DNA from: a virus
Strand: one strand, 5' to 3'
DNA: 38,554 nucleotides
Virus record (IMG/VR): IMGVR_UViG_3300028423_000702
Location: 1 to 38,554 of that record
This document shows positions 10,547-22,042 of this stretch, piece by piece. The translations under genes were made by a program, and so were the position numbers. The notes below the pieces were generated by a model. The model saw only the letters and a program-made list of their open reading frames with translations, was not told where the DNA came from and searched no databases. Numbering within the stretch: position 1 is the stretch's first letter; each line of letters starts with the position of its first letter.

Positions 10547-11403
10547 CCACTTTGACTCAACGCATCGAGGATGCAACGGACCTGATCGAAACCAGTGCAA
10601 GTGAGATTGCAGCAAGCGCAGCTACTCTCAGGGCTTTTACGCCACGCGGTGATTGGGCTACTGGCACCACCTACAGTCTTCGAGATTTGGTGGTTGATGC
10701 TGGCAACGATTTTGGCCAAGGTGAAGATATTATTTATGTATTGACTTGCAACAGCCTGACATCGACGAACCCGGCGGCTGAACTAGCGTCTGGTAATTGG
10801 GCAATACATCAGCCTACATCTGCGCTCAAACTAGAGAAAAATCCAGACGATTCTGGTCCTCTTAAGCTAGAGTCAGCAAACAATATTTTGCTTGCTCCTG
10901 AAGGGGCAATTTCATGTTCAAATAAGCGCATATCTTCTGTGGCAAACGGAGTTGCGCCGACTGATGCAGCAACTGTTCAGCAGCTAATTTCTCAGGTTCC
11001 TATTCTAACTGGAACATGGGAGCCAGAGATTCAAACTACTAACAATGATGGAACTGTATCTTACACTACAAGAGAAGGCTATTATTATGTAATAGGCGAT
11101 TTAGTATTTCTGAGGGGTGTTGTTGATTTTTCCATTTCTGGTGGGACAGGGTATCCAAGGATTGTTAATCCGCCATTTACAGGATTAGTTGGCAATCAAA
11201 ATTACCCAATTAGTACGGTCGTTGGTGGTTTTGGAACTGGCGCTGCAAAAAATCTTAATGTAGATTTCGCAGATTATCAATATTATTGGTCTATACAAGG
11301 CAATATCATAACTCTTGTTGTTATCAATGACGATGGGATTGGGTCTAATCCTGATGACCAAGAAATGTCATGGGACTTTTCTTTAGTGTATCAAAAGCAG
11401 TGA
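10543..11403 (+). CDS. Tail fibre-like protein with carbohydrate-binding-type N-terminal repeat
   Basis: A 286-residue protein. Residues about 30-80 (RGDWATGTTYSLRDLV, then IIYVLTCNSLTSTNPA, GNWAI) match the short tryptophan/tyrosine beta domain frequent in phage fibres and related to chitin-binding modules. Near residue 130, NKRISSVANGVAPTDAATVQQL is the fibre-shaft motif found in trimeric fibres and YadA-like stalks. The C-terminal 130 residues are aromatic- and asparagine-rich and visibly AT-rich in codon use, as expected for a fast-evolving receptor-binding head. The ATG at 10543 overlaps the preceding stop (ATGA). Confidence 0.65.
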   Translation: MTTLTQRIEDATDLIETSASEIAASAATLRAFTPRGDWATGTTYSLRDLVVDAGNDFGQGEDIIYVLTCNSLTSTNPAAELASGNWAIHQPTSALKLEKNPDDSGPLKLESANNILLAPEGAISCSNKRISSVANGVAPTDAATVQQLISQVPILTGTWEPEIQTTNNDGTVSYTTREGYYYVIGDLVFLRGVVDFSISGGTGYPRIVNPPFTGLVGNQNYPISTVVGGFGTGAAKNLNVDFADYQYYWSIQGNIITLVVINDDGIGSNPDDQEMSWDFSLVYQKQ

Positions 11404-11418
11404 CTTGGAGCGAATAAA

Positions 11419-12927
11419 ATGAAATATTACGTTATTGCTAAACATTCAAAATATAAAAAAGATTTGTTAGCAAACTTTTCTGGTATTGTATCAGACGCAA
11501 AACCACTTTCGAAAAAATTGTTTGTTATTGAGACTAGTGAATGTCCAATAGAAGACAATAGGTTTACTTGTGAGCCTTTGCCAGAAAACATAGTTGTGTC
11601 TCAAGACATTGTACAGACAGGCTTGATGTCTGCAACCTCCTCTAGTATTGATTCAAATGAAATTAACCATGGTCTTGGTGTTTCATCTTTTGTATCCGGG
11701 ATTAATTCTTCACTAGAATCTCAAAGTTTTTATAGGACATTGACTGGTTACGGTGTAGACATTGTTGTTATTGATTCTGGAGTATTAAAAGATCATCCTG
11801 AATTTTTAGACAGCCAAGGAACATCAAGAGTGGTAGAACTAGATTGGCCAGCAGTAACTGGATTTACTGCTGAATTTCCTAATTTTTCTACTGCTGAGCA
11901 TTACGACCAGCGCTATCCTAAGATGAACAGTCATGGGACGTGTATGGCTGGACTTGCGGCTGGAAACAGAACTGGCTGGGCTTACAATGCAAAAATTTAC
12001 CCTATCAGAAATCAAGGGTCTGATGGTAGCTCTATATCTACACCAGATGCTGTTGGACTTGTGACGGCTTGGCACGAACAAAAAAAAATTAGTGGAAACT
12101 ATCGTCCTACAATAATAACAATATCTACATCAGTAAGATATAATGCACCATCCATAGATGTTGCAGCTGTTGACGGAATAGTTGGTGTTAACTACCAAGG
12201 TACTTTGTATGAGGTTCCTATTGGGTCTTCTGATGCAGTAAAAGCACAATACAAAATAACTGAGCAGTTTGCATTGGGTTTTCCTTTTCCTGCAAGGTCG
12301 GCAGAATATGTTACAGCTTATAGTGAGGCCATAGAAGCTGGTGTTGTTATTGTTAATTCAGCAGGCAACCACGGAGCGTATGTTGCAGCATTTGAAGATG
12401 AAGACTGGGATAACAATATAGTAAATATTGGTTATTATAATCGTGGCGGATGTCCGGGACCGGATGTTGGTGTTATCCCTGCTGGCAACATCAAAGAAAC
12501 TCTCTCTTCTGGCAAGTGGGTCATTCAGGAAAACAGTAATCGTGGACCGGGGATTGGCGGATATGTCTCTGGTCAAAACACAGCAACCGCTTGCACGTCT
12601 GGTACAGACTACTCATTGCCTGGATTTACAGTGTATTCTCCAATACTCAAAACAAATTATTTGTCTGAAACAAACTCCGACTATTTGCTTGGCAGATTTG
12701 GTGGGACATCCGCAGCTTCTCCTCAACTTGCAGGCATTGTAGCAACATGGGCTGAAGCTAATCCTTGCATGACAGGATGGGATGCTTTGGCTTTAATATC
12801 AGAACATGAAGACGCTTTAGTGTACGAACCAACAGTGTCATTTACTGATGCTCAGTCCTTATGGGGTGATACAAGTCGATTAGTCATGAACTACTCTGCC
12901 AACAACAAAGTGCGTGGAATTTCTTGA
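11419..12927 (+). CDS. Subtilisin-like serine protease (peptidase S8) in the tail cluster
   Basis: The 502-residue protein has the full S8 triad: D119 in IVVIDSGVLKDHPEFLD, H172 in NSHGTCMAGLAAG and S431 in GGTSAASPQLAGIVATW, with oxyanion N317 in VNSAGNHG. Residues 1-105 may be a propeptide or virion-attachment part; no signal peptide is seen. The gene lies between a fibre gene and tip genes, so it may be a virion-bound protease that cuts host surface proteins or processes a fibre. Its coding is clearly more AT-rich than the packaging genes, suggesting recent acquisition together with the preceding fibre's C-terminal half. It has only a poor Shine-Dalgarno (ggagcg, 11 bases upstream). Confidence 0.9.
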   Translation: MKYYVIAKHSKYKKDLLANFSGIVSDAKPLSKKLFVIETSECPIEDNRFTCEPLPENIVVSQDIVQTGLMSATSSSIDSNEINHGLGVSSFVSGINSSLESQSFYRTLTGYGVDIVVIDSGVLKDHPEFLDSQGTSRVVELDWPAVTGFTAEFPNFSTAEHYDQRYPKMNSHGTCMAGLAAGNRTGWAYNAKIYPIRNQGSDGSSISTPDAVGLVTAWHEQKKISGNYRPTIITISTSVRYNAPSIDVAAVDGIVGVNYQGTLYEVPIGSSDAVKAQYKITEQFALGFPFPARSAEYVTAYSEAIEAGVVIVNSAGNHGAYVAAFEDEDWDNNIVNIGYYNRGGCPGPDVGVIPAGNIKETLSSGKWVIQENSNRGPGIGGYVSGQNTATACTSGTDYSLPGFTVYSPILKTNYLSETNSDYLLGRFGGTSAASPQLAGIVATWAEANPCMTGWDALALISEHEDALVYEPTVSFTDAQSLWGDTSRLVMNYSANNKVRGIS

Positions 12928-16255: not shown

Positions 16256-16743
16256 TTTAATTGTGGCTACGAGGCAAGTCCGCGATGGGTTCAAGTCTGC
16301 TCTTGCAGGCAATACTTCTGTTGGCGACAACGTGTTTGCCAGTCGAGTGTTTCCAATACAGTCAGATCTTGACTCTGCCATCATGCTTAGTGCTCAGTCG
16401 TTTAATGTCGAGCGAGATGCACTGTATTTTCTCAATCGCACTACTGAGTATCTGAGAACACTTCGCGTCAGAATTGATGGATATGTTAAGCATGGGTTGA
16501 CTTTGCTAGACAAGTTAGACCTATGACGTGTTGTTTAGGTTTGTTGCAGAGCCAGCTGGCTACGAGATAATCAACCCATTGCTGACTACTACGCTGACCA
16601 AAGACTTTGTGTCTCGATCCCTCATCAACACTCAAGCATTGCGCCCAGACTTAAATACTATCAAGTGGTCTACGCTACTCAGTACGCGCTATGATGTCAG
16701 CGAAGAAACCTCTGCATCAGCCACCACCATCCAAGTGATATGA
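16245..16743 (+). pseudogene. Second gpU-like tail terminator gene, frameshifted
   Basis: The frame from ATG 16245 (VATRQVRDGFKSALAG, NVFASRVFPIQSDLD, then YLRTLRVRIDGYVK) matches the layout of the gpU-like protein at 6687. It stops at 16524-16526. The next frame is open from 16519 to 16743 (LFRFVAEPAGYEIINPLL, then IKWSTLLSTRYDVSEETS) and supplies the expected C-terminal strands. A single frame change between 16516 and 16526 would join them into one protein of about 165 residues. Position after the tip gene is unusual for a tail terminator. It could be a decayed duplicate, a second-function paralogue with a sequence error, or two small genes (a GTG at 16528 could start the second). Confidence 0.6.
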
Positions 16744-19010
16744 CTACCTTATACGTCGTCGTCTACCCGTCGAGCCTATCCATCCCAAGTGCTGCACAGA
16801 TCATCGCTGGCCAGGACAGCACCGGCAGTCCTGCGGCATTCTCAGATAGCGTCAACGCGCCCACTGACAGCACCTACACCTTTCCAACTAATGACCTGAA
16901 TGTCGGAGAAACCTATCAGGCATCATTTGTCTGGAGCGGGACAGACTATACCTCGGCAGTGGCTACGTCCGATCCACTGGTTATCGGTATCCCCCAAGGC
17001 GGGTTGGCTGCCTACTCCTTGCGTGACATTTGGAATGGTGGTGGGAATGTTGTTCGGTTGAGAAGAAGCGGTGATGATGCTGAAAGGGATTTTACTGCGG
17101 CTGAGTTGGTTGATGGAACTTTGGAGAGTTGGGCAGGCGCTCTTTTAAGTCCGATTGCATACTGGAAATGCAATGAAGTAAGTGGTACAACTTTTAATGA
17201 TACTGCAGGGACATATCAAGGTTCATTAACATCGACTGGCATTTTATATCGGCAGCCAGATCCTTTTGGTAACAACTCTGCTATGGGATTCCGTGGCGGC
17301 TCGGCTACTATTGCATTTAGTAGTAGCTTGATTTTTGGTACGGGTACTTTATCGTTTTGGGTTAAACGAAACGGTTCTGTGCAAGAGAGCTTTGCCCCAA
17401 TTTTTTGGTGGGACGGGAATAACACTATAATGAAGTACTTCACAACAAGTCATATATACTGGGACGGCTATAAAATTGCAGACTCCGCGCTAGATGGTAG
17501 CTGGCACCATGTTTTAGTTACTATTGACGGCATTCAATTTACTTCTTATGTTGATGGAGCTTTGGCAGAAAGTTTTTCTAAAGACCTTGAGATAGATACT
17601 ACATTGAGAATTGGATATTCCGCGATAGATGAACTACATTTTGATATATGTGAAATAGCAGCTTTTAACGAGGTTTTAACATTAGACCAGATTCAATCTA
17701 TTTATAACTCCTCTCAAATTAGTAGTACTCAAGCCACCACCCTCTACGACCAATCCGGCAACGGAAAACACGCAGTACAAAACGATGCAGATAAGCAGCC
17801 TCAGTTAGTTGTGGTGGACGACAAACCCAGATTACGCTTCGATGGAGTAGATGATTATTTGGACTGTGGGTTGGTAAACGATGGAACTAAACCAGCTAAT
17901 TTCTCTGCATATATGGTTGGAAAGTTTAATAGTGATGGGGTTGGGGTTGGTAGTACAGAAAGTGCAGCAATAGCAAACTATGATGATTATATACTAGCGC
18001 TGAACCCAATTCTGTACTGGAAAATGGATGAAACATCTGGGACAACTATCTTTGATGCTGGAACATCTCAATATAATGCAAATATTGGTGGAGGAGCAAT
18101 TACCAGCGAAGACGGGCTACATTTTTCTTCACCTAAGTCAATTAGATTTAATACATCTACTTGGGCCAGCGCTGGGAATAAGCCTGAGTTTAGCTCAAGT
18201 ACTTTATCGATAGAGCTGTGGGTAAAAGTTGGAGCAAGCAGAACAGGCAAAGATATACTGCGCTATGGCAGAACAAACAACCTAACTTTTAGATGGAGAT
18301 TAGGGGATAATGGAGCTTTTTATCTTTATGATAATTCTGGGTCAAGATATGATATAAGTGTTGGATATTTAAGTACAGACATTTTGTATCACATAGTTAT
18401 TACTATGCAGTTTAGCTCAAGCAGCGGCTTAAAGGGATATAAAAATGGAATACTTGTAGATTCAAAAGATATATACTTTGGTCCAGGGGGAATTACCTTC
18501 CCAACATTTCTAATAAATAGGGACCCATATTCGTCAACTGATTTTACGCTAGACGGAGTAGCTTTATACAATCGCATTTTAACACCAGAAGAGATTGAAG
18601 AGCATTATAACTTTGGCTTAGAAGAGATAAGTAGTAAAAATAGTTATTCTATAATATATAGACAATCAAGCAAACTACAAACAGCATTTGGCGACGGAAC
18701 AAATGCCACAGAGGCTGTAGCGAACAACACGTTACCAACTACCCAGTCCATATATGGCATCTACTACGATGGCGGAAACACCATTGATGCTTATGTAAAT
18801 GGTACACAACAGTCACTAACTTACATCACTCAAGATGCTTCGTCTTCTTCAGGTACAGAATACAAGATGAGTATTGGTAGGCCAGGGGAGTTTGATGGGT
18901 TGTACTTTGAAGGTGACGTATCTGAAGTTCTTGTGTATGCCCTTGACCTGACGCCCAAGCGAACCGGCATCGAGTCTGAGCTTGACTTATACTATTCTGT
19001 GCTACCATAG
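16740..19010 (+). CDS. Large tail fibre with two LamG domains nested inside a third ConA-like domain
   Basis: 756 residues. Residues 90-133 (AYSLRDIWNGGGNVVRLRRS, then DFTAAELVDGTLESWAG) and 331-410 (TTLYDQSGNGKHAVQNDADK, QPQLV) are the two halves of a ConA-like domain related to arabinofuranosidase-type domains of phage fibres; residues 635-756 complete it. Between them sit two LamG-like domains, about 134-330 (PIAYWKCNEVSGTTFNDTAG, WHHVLVTIDG) and 411-634 (PILYWKMDETSGTTIFDAGT, ILTPEEIEEHYN). The inserts are clearly more AT-rich than the flanks. LamG folds bind sugars, so this is probably a receptor-binding fibre. The ATG overlaps the previous stop. Confidence 0.8.
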   Translation: MTTLYVVVYPSSLSIPSAAQIIAGQDSTGSPAAFSDSVNAPTDSTYTFPTNDLNVGETYQASFVWSGTDYTSAVATSDPLVIGIPQGGLAAYSLRDIWNGGGNVVRLRRSGDDAERDFTAAELVDGTLESWAGALLSPIAYWKCNEVSGTTFNDTAGTYQGSLTSTGILYRQPDPFGNNSAMGFRGGSATIAFSSSLIFGTGTLSFWVKRNGSVQESFAPIFWWDGNNTIMKYFTTSHIYWDGYKIADSALDGSWHHVLVTIDGIQFTSYVDGALAESFSKDLEIDTTLRIGYSAIDELHFDICEIAAFNEVLTLDQIQSIYNSSQISSTQATTLYDQSGNGKHAVQNDADKQPQLVVVDDKPRLRFDGVDDYLDCGLVNDGTKPANFSAYMVGKFNSDGVGVGSTESAAIANYDDYILALNPILYWKMDETSGTTIFDAGTSQYNANIGGGAITSEDGLHFSSPKSIRFNTSTWASAGNKPEFSSSTLSIELWVKVGASRTGKDILRYGRTNNLTFRWRLGDNGAFYLYDNSGSRYDISVGYLSTDILYHIVITMQFSSSSGLKGYKNGILVDSKDIYFGPGGITFPTFLINRDPYSSTDFTLDGVALYNRILTPEEIEEHYNFGLEEISSKNSYSIIYRQSSKLQTAFGDGTNATEAVANNTLPTTQSIYGIYYDGGNTIDAYVNGTQQSLTYITQDASSSSGTEYKMSIGRPGEFDGLYFEGDVSEVLVYALDLTPKRTGIESELDLYYSVLP

Positions 19011-19469: not shown

Positions 19470-19472
19470 CCG

Positions 19473-21050
19473 ATGGCCGACAAGAAAATCTCCGAACTCA
19501 CTGCCGCGTCGGCCCTCACCGGCTCCGAGGCTGTCCCCGTCGTCCAGTCCGGCGCCAACAAGCGCACCACGCCGGACGCCCTGGCCGCCCGCGTCAGCGA
19601 TGCGCTCGGCCTCGGCACCGCCGCCACCGCAGAAGTGATGACCTCCGCCGCCGACCGCACCGCCGGGCGCATCGTCATCGTCGATTACATCGACCAGCTC
19701 ATCACCGCCCCGCAAAACGACATCGGCACCCCCGGCCAGCCCGGCTTCGGCGTCGGCATCTACCCCGGCATCCTGCCCGCCGGCTTTAGCGAAATGGACG
19801 GCACCACCACACCCGTCGCCGCCAACTACGGCAACTATCGCTACTCCGACGGCTCGATCTGCTGCTACATCCCCAAGTGCTACATCCGTATCGGCCACGC
19901 CAGCAACCCGACCTACGCCACCTACGGGGTCAACTCGGTCGATGTCCAGCCCGCCAGCGCCTTCGCCGACGAAGCCGCCGCCAACACCGCCGGCTACATG
20001 CTGCCCCGCGCGTTCAAGGATGGCGGCCAGACCCTCCAGGGCTTCTGGATCGACAAGTACCTGGCCAGCCCGAACGGCGCCGGCGATGCCGCGATCAGCG
20101 TGCCGCTCGGCAAGCCGCTCAGCCTGACCACCGACGGCAACTACACCAACACCCAAGACAGTCTGTCGCTCGGCCTCAGCGGCCAGCTGCACGACGCCGT
20201 GACCCTGGCCCGCGCACGCGGCACCGGCTGGCATTGCACCGCGATCTGGCAACAGTGGCTGTTAGCGATTTTGAGCCTTGCCCACGGCCAGGCCGCCACC
20301 ACCAGCACTTACTGCGCCTGGTACGACAGCAACGGCACGACCAACTTCCCCAAAGGCTGCAACAACAACGCCCTCGGTGACACCAACGACAACACCATCC
20401 TGTATATCACCGCCGGCGACGCCGGCAATGCCAACAAGCCGCTGACCGGCAGCGCCAATTTCCCCGCCAAGGTCGCGCACAACGGCCAACTGTGCGGCGT
20501 CATGGACCTCAACGGCACGCTCTGGGAAGTGCAGCTCGGCATCACCAGCCCCGGCAGCAGCGCCACATCGTCCACCCAGATCACCAATGGCGATACCTAT
20601 GTCTTGAAAGAGTCCGTCGCCCTGCACGACCTGCTCAGCGGCTGGACGGAAGGCGGCGTCTCCGGCGATGCCAATAACGCCTGGGGTGACGCCACCCACC
20701 TCGCCACCCTGTACGACGCCAAGACCGGCTTTTTACCCTGGGGCAGCGCCCAGGGCAGTTACTACTACTTTGGCAATGGCGCCGCGCAAGTGTTTGCCGC
20801 CGACACCAGTGGCGACGCCTATCTACAAACCAACGCCGGGATCGGGCAGGAGGCCGGCATGAGCGGCAGCGGCACCAACCTGTTCGGCAACGACGGCGCC
20901 TATCGCTACAACCGGCACAATATGTTCCCGCTCTCCGGTGGCAATTGGAACACTGCGGCCACTGCGGGTGTGTTCGCCCGCAGTTGGGGCGGCACCCGCA
21001 CGAACTCGAGCAACCCCTTTGGGTTCCGCGCGGCCGCCCCCGCCCTTTGA
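19473..21050 (+). CDS. C-type-lectin/FGE-fold tail protein, probable DGR target
   Basis: 525 residues, strongly GC-rich. The N-terminus (KKISELTAASALTGSEAVPV, then RTTPDALAARV) is a standard fibre-attachment segment. The rest has the formylglycine-generating-enzyme/C-type lectin pattern: GFWIDKYLASPN, the DMNGxxWE-like MDLNGTLWEVQLG, and a C-terminal end FPLSGGNWNTAATAGVFARS, then RTNSS and GFRAA. That end matches the variable region of DGR-diversified lectins such as Bordetella phage Mtd, where residues in the final strands are randomised to change receptor binding. The next two elements (hairpin, Avd-like gene) support this. Most likely a receptor-binding tip protein. Confidence 0.8.
   Translation: MADKKISELTAASALTGSEAVPVVQSGANKRTTPDALAARVSDALGLGTAATAEVMTSAADRTAGRIVIVDYIDQLITAPQNDIGTPGQPGFGVGIYPGILPAGFSEMDGTTTPVAANYGNYRYSDGSICCYIPKCYIRIGHASNPTYATYGVNSVDVQPASAFADEAAANTAGYMLPRAFKDGGQTLQGFWIDKYLASPNGAGDAAISVPLGKPLSLTTDGNYTNTQDSLSLGLSGQLHDAVTLARARGTGWHCTAIWQQWLLAILSLAHGQAATTSTYCAWYDSNGTTNFPKGCNNNALGDTNDNTILYITAGDAGNANKPLTGSANFPAKVAHNGQLCGVMDLNGTLWEVQLGITSPGSSATSSTQITNGDTYVLKESVALHDLLSGWTEGGVSGDANNAWGDATHLATLYDAKTGFLPWGSAQGSYYYFGNGAAQVFAADTSGDAYLQTNAGIGQEAGMSGSGTNLFGNDGAYRYNRHNMFPLSGGNWNTAATAGVFARSWGGTRTNSSNPFGFRAAAPAL
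20880..21050 (+). other. Candidate DGR variable repeat (VR)
   Basis: The last ~170 bases of the lectin-fold gene encode the segment that is diversified in known DGR targets (GGNWNTAATAGVFARSW, RTNSSNPFGFRAA). The end is a GC-only-like stretch (about 21020-21044), as at the fixed 3' edge (IMH) of known variable repeats. Limits are approximate because no template repeat is visible in the window to align with. Confidence 0.55.
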
Positions 21051-21064
21051 CCGGGTTAATGACT

Positions 21065-21084
21065 GCCCGCGCGGTAGCGCGGGC
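21065..21084. other. DNA hairpin/cruciform with 8-bp stem and GRNA tetraloop (DGR target feature)
   Basis: GCCCGCGC (21065-21072) pairs perfectly with GCGCGGGC (21077-21084) around the loop GGTA, which fits GRNA. It begins 14 bases after the end of the VR-bearing gene. Known DGRs need an 8-bp-stem, 4-base GRNA-loop hairpin just downstream of the VR for efficient retrohoming. There is no T-run, so a terminator is unlikely. Confidence 0.7.
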
Positions 21085-21092
21085 CTAAGCCA

Positions 21093-21290
21093 ATGAGCAA
21101 ACTCGACACCAACGCACCGCTGATCCAAAAAACGCGCGAGATGATAAAATTGCTCAACATTTACTTGAACCACTTCCCGCGTCACGAAAAATACGGGCTG
21201 TGCCAACAGGTGCGCCACTACTGTCGCCGGATCCGCGCCGAACAACCCGCCCTGATCCCGCACCTACCCCAATACCAGGAGGCCGCATGA
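21093..21290 (+). CDS. Avd-like four-helix-bundle protein (short)
   Basis: The 65-residue product (LIQKTREMIKLLNIYLNHFP, RHEKYGLCQQVRHYCRRIR) carries the signature start of the DGR accessory protein Avd and related four-helix-bundle proteins (LIQKTxE, HFPRxxKYxLxQxxR). Avd is a pentamer that binds the DGR reverse transcriptase and template RNA. Usual length is about 110-130 residues; here only helices one and part of two are present, so it is truncated or a minimal form. It sits in the canonical place right after the VR and hairpin, but the usual template repeat and reverse transcriptase do not follow. Confidence 0.7.
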   Translation: MSKLDTNAPLIQKTREMIKLLNIYLNHFPRHEKYGLCQQVRHYCRRIRAEQPALIPHLPQYQEAA

Positions 21291-21691
21291 GCGCCACCCT
21301 CTACACCTACACCCCGCAAGCCACCCCCGGGCCGATCGGCACAGATCCGCGCCCCAGCGCCGGCGAGGACGCCCTCACCGAGCTGTGCGAGCTGGACGGC
21401 CTGCGCTACGTCAGCGTGCCGGACTTCGCTACCGTCAGCGTGCCCGAGCAGATCACAGACTGGCAGCCCGCCAGCCTGACCGACGCCCTGCGCGCCCAGA
21501 TCAAGACCGCCAGCCCGCATTGCCGGCGGATCGACGAGCAGGTGGTCGCACAGATCCGGTCGCGCTACAGCGTCGACGACGAGATCAAGCTGCTACGCCT
21601 CGCCCCCAGCCCCGAAACCGACGCCTGGAACGCCTGGGCCGAAGACTGCCGCGCCTGGGGTGCCGCGCAAAAGACCGCCCTCGGTCTGTAA
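21287..21691 (+). CDS. Hypothetical protein after the DGR-like cassette (possible fibre chaperone)
   Basis: 134 residues, GC-rich like its two upstream neighbours, coupled to the Avd-like gene by an ATGA overlap with AGGAGG ahead. The C-terminal part (RYSVDDEIKLLRLAPSPETD, then CRAWGAAQKTALGL) has the helical, tryptophan-containing look of small proteins that follow phage tail fibres and may help fold them. No enzymatic motif is seen. The name is inferred. Confidence 0.6.
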   Translation: MSATLYTYTPQATPGPIGTDPRPSAGEDALTELCELDGLRYVSVPDFATVSVPEQITDWQPASLTDALRAQIKTASPHCRRIDEQVVAQIRSRYSVDDEIKLLRLAPSPETDAWNAWAEDCRAWGAAQKTALGL

Positions 21692-21712
21692 CCCGCGCCC
21701 GGAGCCCGCGCC

Positions 21713-22042
21713 ATGACCGACGACACCGCCACCGCCCGCCTCGACGCCCGCCTCGACCGCTTCGAATCGAAGATCGACGAATCCATCAGCGGTGTACACC
21801 AGCGCCTGGATCGCCTTGCCGATGCCCTGGCGACGATCAAACTACTCGAAGAGCGCGTCGGTCAGAATTCCCGCAGCCTTGAACGCGCTTTTGAGAAGAT
21901 CGACACTCACGATAAAGACATCAATCAACTCAAACACCGCAATGCTGGCGCTGATAAGACTTTGGCCTTTGCAGAGCGATTTCTCTGGATGCTGGCAACA
22001 GCCGCCGTCGGTTACTACTTCTACGCCCAAGGAGGCGCATAA
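21713..22042 (+). CDS. Coiled-coil protein with C-terminal membrane anchor, lysis-region (XhlA-like)
   Basis: 109 residues. Residues 8-80 are charged heptad-like (ARLDARLDRFESKIDESISG, IDTHDKDINQLKHRN). Residues about 89-104 (RFLWMLATAAVGYYFYA) form one membrane segment near the end. This resembles XhlA/holin-accessory proteins found beside endolysins. It may be a holin partner or spanin-like protein. The first half is GC-rich and the second half is not, so the GC-rich cassette ends inside this gene near 21,850. Confidence 0.6.
   Translation: MTDDTATARLDARLDRFESKIDESISGVHQRLDRLADALATIKLLEERVGQNSRSLERAFEKIDTHDKDINQLKHRNAGADKTLAFAERFLWMLATAAVGYYFYAQGGA

Follow-up and report, generated by a model that had tools for sequence, protein, structure and literature searches.

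The window analysed here is a whole virus record of 38,554 bases that encodes a lambda-like tailed phage with a portal, a tape measure, and tip J-like proteins. The phage has a GC content of about 50%, and the DGR module at 19470-22000 forms a GC island of 63-69% within it. Tail genes near the module (11000-12500 and 17500-19000) are AT-rich, with a GC content of 36-41%. A GC island beside AT-rich tail genes suggests a mosaic tail region, probably assembled from modules acquired by horizontal exchange. A subtilase-family gene (11419-12927; Peptidase_S8, E 9e-19) lies in one of the AT-rich parts of the tail gene region, and a 756-amino-acid protein with three LamG-type lectin stretches (16740-19010; Laminin_G_3, E 5e-34) is encoded directly upstream of the module. 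Two tail proteins of the window have no relatives in IMG/VR. The features of the module are listed in Table 1.

The first gene of the module encodes a 525-amino-acid protein that was originally predicted to be a tail protein of the lectin/FGE fold ending in a DGR-type variable region (VR). With 59 relatives as input, AF2 models residues 79-525 with a pLDDT of 91.2 and a pTM of 0.93, and this model was used in place of one made from 16 sequences, which gave a pLDDT of only 54.5. The top Foldseek matches of the lectin model are three chains of 5vf4 (E 1.6e-14), which is the DGR variable protein TaqVP (PMC6328139). These are followed by five Mtd variants of phage BPP-1 (1yu0-1yu4; E about 2e-3, with 1yu4 at 1.5e-3). 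The sequence profile of the protein also retrieves 5vf4 (E 2.2e-5). The C-type lectin fold of the variable protein is thus common to TaqVP, Mtd, and the window protein, although the carriers differ and the aligned identity is 13-15%. The fold on which the prediction hinged is that of a C-type lectin, and the protein carries its VR at the C-terminus, as is expected at a DGR target locus.

All 12 of the AAC/AAT positions in the template repeat (TR) of a related intact locus, L145, correspond to an NNC or NNT codon in the window VR; in the rest of the gene, 76% of codons end in C or T. Against this TR, which was chosen post hoc as the best match, the window VR differs at 17 of 31 adenine sites and at 19 of 80 other sites (p 0.003). 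This indirect comparison of sequences is at most suggestive of an adenine-patterned difference.

A hairpin begins 14 nucleotides past the stop codon of the target gene and has a predicted DNA folding energy of -12.9 kcal/mol (z -2.5). Hairpins of phage DGRs have been described with a stem of 7-10 bp and a GRNA loop at a distance of 4-34 bp from the VR (PMC3240598). The window hairpin, with its perfect 8-bp stem and GGTA loop, fits this consensus for a DGR target locus, and the GRNA hairpin anticipated after the lectin gene is therefore real.

The hairpin is followed by a 65-amino-acid open reading frame (ORF) that was at first taken for an Avd-like gene in canonical order. Its position and its similarity to Avd are both upheld (PHROG 3206, 2e-7; custom Avd HMM, 2.5e-16, positions 2-39 of 120), but the match is confined to the N-terminal third. 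Full-length Avd has about 134 residues in about 70 of 80 relatives from the first scan, and residues 1-41 are all that is left in the window. The ORF was consequently rejected as a full accessory gene, and the window has no complete Avd such as a DGR that functions in cis would need. The remainder of the ORF comes from the other end of the DGR. Over its final 24 residues, the ORF aligns with the C-terminal end of the DGR reverse transcriptase (RT) of two relatives, L081 (68%, E 3.7e-11) and L093 (67%), in searches of a small database. The RT of L081 ends in ...HRHYCRRIRAERPDLIDSLPLYEDST and the window ORF ends in HYCRRIRAEQPALIPHLPQYQEAA; at the DNA level this remnant is 79.5% identical to L081 over 44 bp. 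The 65-amino-acid ORF is thus an avd::RT fusion in which the start of avd is joined in frame to the end of the RT gene.

Table 1. Features of the DGR module (nucleotide positions in the window unless residues are given)
Feature	Position	Strand	Basis
DGR-type variable receptor-binding (tail) protein, 525 aa	19473..21050	+	AF2 model, Foldseek, profile
C-type lectin domain of the 525-aa protein	about residues 79-525		AF2 model and Foldseek
VR, C-terminal end of the target gene, MFPLSGGNWNTAATAGVFARSWGGTRTNSSNPFGFRAAAPAL	20922..21047	+	gap-free alignment to template repeats of intact L145, L108, L081
Target-recognition hairpin/cruciform, 8-bp stem GCCCGCGC, loop GGTA (GRNA)	21065..21084	+	stem perfect, GC
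avd remnant, start codon and residues 1-41	21093..21215	+	85% identity to L081 Avd residues 1-41
Deletion junction, CGC common to both sides	21213..21215	+	blastn against L081, codon comparison
DGR RT remnant, last 24 codons and stop, HYCRRIRAEQPALIPHLPQYQEAA	21216..21290	+	match to L081/L093 RT C-terminus
Downstream gene of the DGR operon, 134 aa, possibly tail-fibre assembly	21287..21691	+	homologs after the RT in L081, L154, L160-L171

In L081 (IMGVR 3300028388_002647) the genes lie in the order VR gene, hairpin, avd, TR, RT, and a homolog of the downstream gene of the window. By blastn, window position 21215 corresponds to L081 position 2095 (inside avd) and window position 21213 to L081 position 3551 (inside the end of the RT gene). 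Relative to L081, about 1455 bp (485 codons) are absent from the window, and these comprise most of avd, the TR, and nearly all of the RT gene. The avd and RT remnants flank the deletion in their ancestral order, as is expected of a decayed DGR. Because Avd residues 1-41 run directly into the 24 C-terminal RT residues within this one ORF, the RT and the TR appear to have been lost by deletion at this locus. The relatives found include no phage that is near-identical to the window and has an intact DGR, and so the deletion is inferred from L081, to which the locus has about 69% DNA identity. The locus is best explained as a decayed DGR that lost its core through one internal deletion and whose variable protein is frozen, a reading to which we assign a probability of roughly 0.88.

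As originally proposed, the record holds neither an RT gene nor a second copy of the VR. Neither RVT_1 nor a DGR-RT HMM has a match in the 38,554-bp virus contig, which may be incomplete, and the 24 C-terminal codons are all that is found of the RT gene; a second VR copy is lacking on both strands of the same contig. The record therefore contains neither the RT nor the TR of a DGR that functions in cis. The original prediction left a choice between a target served in trans by a distant RT and a decayed system. In the first case, the RT, Avd, and TR transcript would come from the DGR of a host, of a prophage in the same cell, or of a co-infecting phage, and the VR and hairpin would act as the recipient site. 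All known cis requirements of a recipient (the VR end and the GRNA hairpin) are intact in the window, and distal targets near a mutated RT in Pseudogulbenkiania have been interpreted as being served by a distant RT (PMC3521204). A serving TR, however, would need to match the window VR closely. The proposed search of related genomes for such a TR and its RT yielded none that fits the VR: a strict TR pattern compatible with the window VR, with adenines allowed at most mutable positions, has 0 matches over IMG/VR, and a DNA search with the VR region finds no match among phages or plasmids. A query for the RT returned L081 and four relatives at about 37% identity and no others. The genome scan for a related lectin found only two genomes, L176 and L175. 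The first has its own intact DGR beside the related lectin, and the sole RTs of the second score far lower against the DGR-RT profile (70-106 bits versus 472-502). Service in trans is thus unsupported and unlikely, whereas the deletion scar is physical evidence for the alternative of decay.

The relatives of the locus indicate that it belongs to a genuine DGR family, because 1211 of 1347 TR-VR mismatches fall on TR adenines in the 86 loci that have avd and a recognizable TR-VR pair. L081 and some 90 further relatives retain avd, TR, and RT in the canonical order. Two of the loci with an intact DGR have additional elements: the minus strand of L144 has a further RT match, which is split (L144:5560-6567), and L106 encodes a second protein that resembles a lectin target (L106:11374-12552). 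Loss of the RT is not confined to the window. Two scans with different Avd N-termini gave 90 intact loci after removal of duplicates, and RT-loss lesions are found in 11 other IMG/VR loci compared with these approximately 90 (about 11%). The RT-loss loci remaining after duplicate removal are L082, L086, L098, L104, L117/L118, L124, L134, and L245/L249; L142 and L149 (set aside by the duplicate filter) and L234 (first taken as a contig end) were added to the list. Frameshifted RTs in L083 and L091 were left out of the count because sequencing error is possible; L091 is 99.8% identical to the intact locus L093. RVT_1 has no match in any of the eight RT-loss records tested.

One RT-loss locus, L082, has kept its TR (L082:8390-8524). 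Its 22 TR-VR mismatches fall on 10 adenines and 12 other bases and are no longer adenine-specific, as expected after mutagenic homing has stopped. The TR-VR differences of L082 may provide a clock of the time since RT loss.

A recent event is seen in a pair of loci, the intact L145 and L149, whose avd genes and VR flanks are identical. L149 has a 1080-bp deletion that starts within the TR and reaches the end of the RT gene. The join lies at an exact 4-bp match (ACTG), with seven of eight bases matching around it. The VRs of the pair differ at 25 of 114 sites, and 20 of these are template adenines. This pair indicates that RT loss occurs in populations with a formerly active DGR.

Recognizable RT C-terminal tails survive in the window and in L098, L104, L134, L245/L249, L234, L149, and L086. 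The arrangement of the downstream gene, whose 134-amino-acid product matches no Pfam family, probably explains their survival. The stop codon of the window fusion overlaps the start codon of the downstream gene as ATGA, and in 69 of 74 intact loci the 3' end of the RT gene overlaps the next ORF, by 4-89 bases. Deletions would spare the RT tail since a deletion through it would damage the next gene, and a shared right-hand deletion boundary would then need no special mechanism.

The avd::RT fusion could itself be a selected small protein, such as an Avd-like RNA-binding or regulatory fragment. It has an open frame and the start of avd, and in-frame fusions like it occur in L098, L104, and L245/L249. 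On the other hand, the equivalents in L134 and L234 are out of frame (the frame of L117 is unclear), the break points vary, and Avd is reduced to its N-terminal third. In-frame joining was tested as a sign of selection and rejected as such, with four of six clear fusions in frame against an expected one-third (P = 0.10, not significant), and the overlap with the downstream gene suffices to explain the open frame. A selected function for the fusion is therefore improbable. Even so, a join that is in frame and a hairpin that is still perfect might point to some remaining function, and they count against a reading of plain decay.

It is less probable still that an intact DGR was collapsed or misjoined during assembly. 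VR-TR repeats can generally confuse assemblers, but the junction in the window joins avd to the RT gene, which share no repeat beyond a few bases, and not VR to TR. Similar lesions are present in unrelated assemblies, including the avd-identical sibling pair L149 and L145. Finally, a lectin that merely resembles DGR targets and was never diversified is hardly credible: Marinobacterium litorale (L175:9557-11749) has a related lectin immediately before the downstream gene and neither avd nor an RT in the vicinity, but the window gene is flanked by avd and RT remnants and a hairpin in the exact order of an intact DGR.

Decay of the DGR by deletion would have started from an ancestral locus organized as in L081, with a lectin target (VR), hairpin, avd, TR, RT, and downstream gene. 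A single deletion would have linked the first 41 codons of avd to the final 24 codons of the RT gene, at a cost of about 93 Avd codons, all of the TR, and more than 90% of the RT. Illegitimate recombination between copies of a very short sequence (CGC in the window and the 4-bp match in L149) is the probable origin of the deletion. The VR gene would have survived, as would the hairpin and the translational overlap that leads into the downstream gene. With diversification in cis lost, the binding specificity of the target is probably fixed at the last template-derived variant, and the frozen target would now be altered only by ordinary mutation or recombination.

The window resembles intact phage-type DGRs (L081 and the prototype BPP-1 mtd/avd/TR/brt) in its target fold, VR form, GRNA hairpin, and gene order, and L081 also shares its downstream gene. 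It differs from them in that the TR is gone and 41 codons of avd are fused in frame to 24 codons of the RT gene. Inactivation of RTs in DGRs is already known. The DiGReF survey of 2012 described DGR RTs inactivated by a nonsense mutation, an insertion element, or a frameshift (PMC3521204). Those loci likewise lost RT function and kept the target, but their VR and TR are present and the RT is broken, whereas in the window the TR and RT are physically deleted. Recurrent avd::RT scars appear to be undescribed; the literature searched on RT-less and degenerate DGRs, which was covered in part, contains no description of them. A large DGR survey anchors on the RT and states that remote targets are missed (Roux et al. 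2021, PMC8144416). Since DGR surveys start from the RT, loci in which it has been deleted are invisible to them.

About one in ten of the sampled avd-bearing loci has lost its RT, usually with avd or the TR joined to the last RT codons and with the target (and in some loci the hairpin) intact. It is a tentative and rather doubtful proposal that deletion of the TR-RT core is a recurrent route by which phages lock in a successful receptor-binding variant, and that frozen targets might be re-awakened in trans by the DGR of another phage. The scar that joins the start of avd to the end of the RT gene is a sequence signature for finding fossil DGRs, and it could be used to measure how often phages abandon targeted hypermutation. 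The intact L145 and the deleted L149 offer a natural test of whether loss of the RT fixes the receptor-binding protein.
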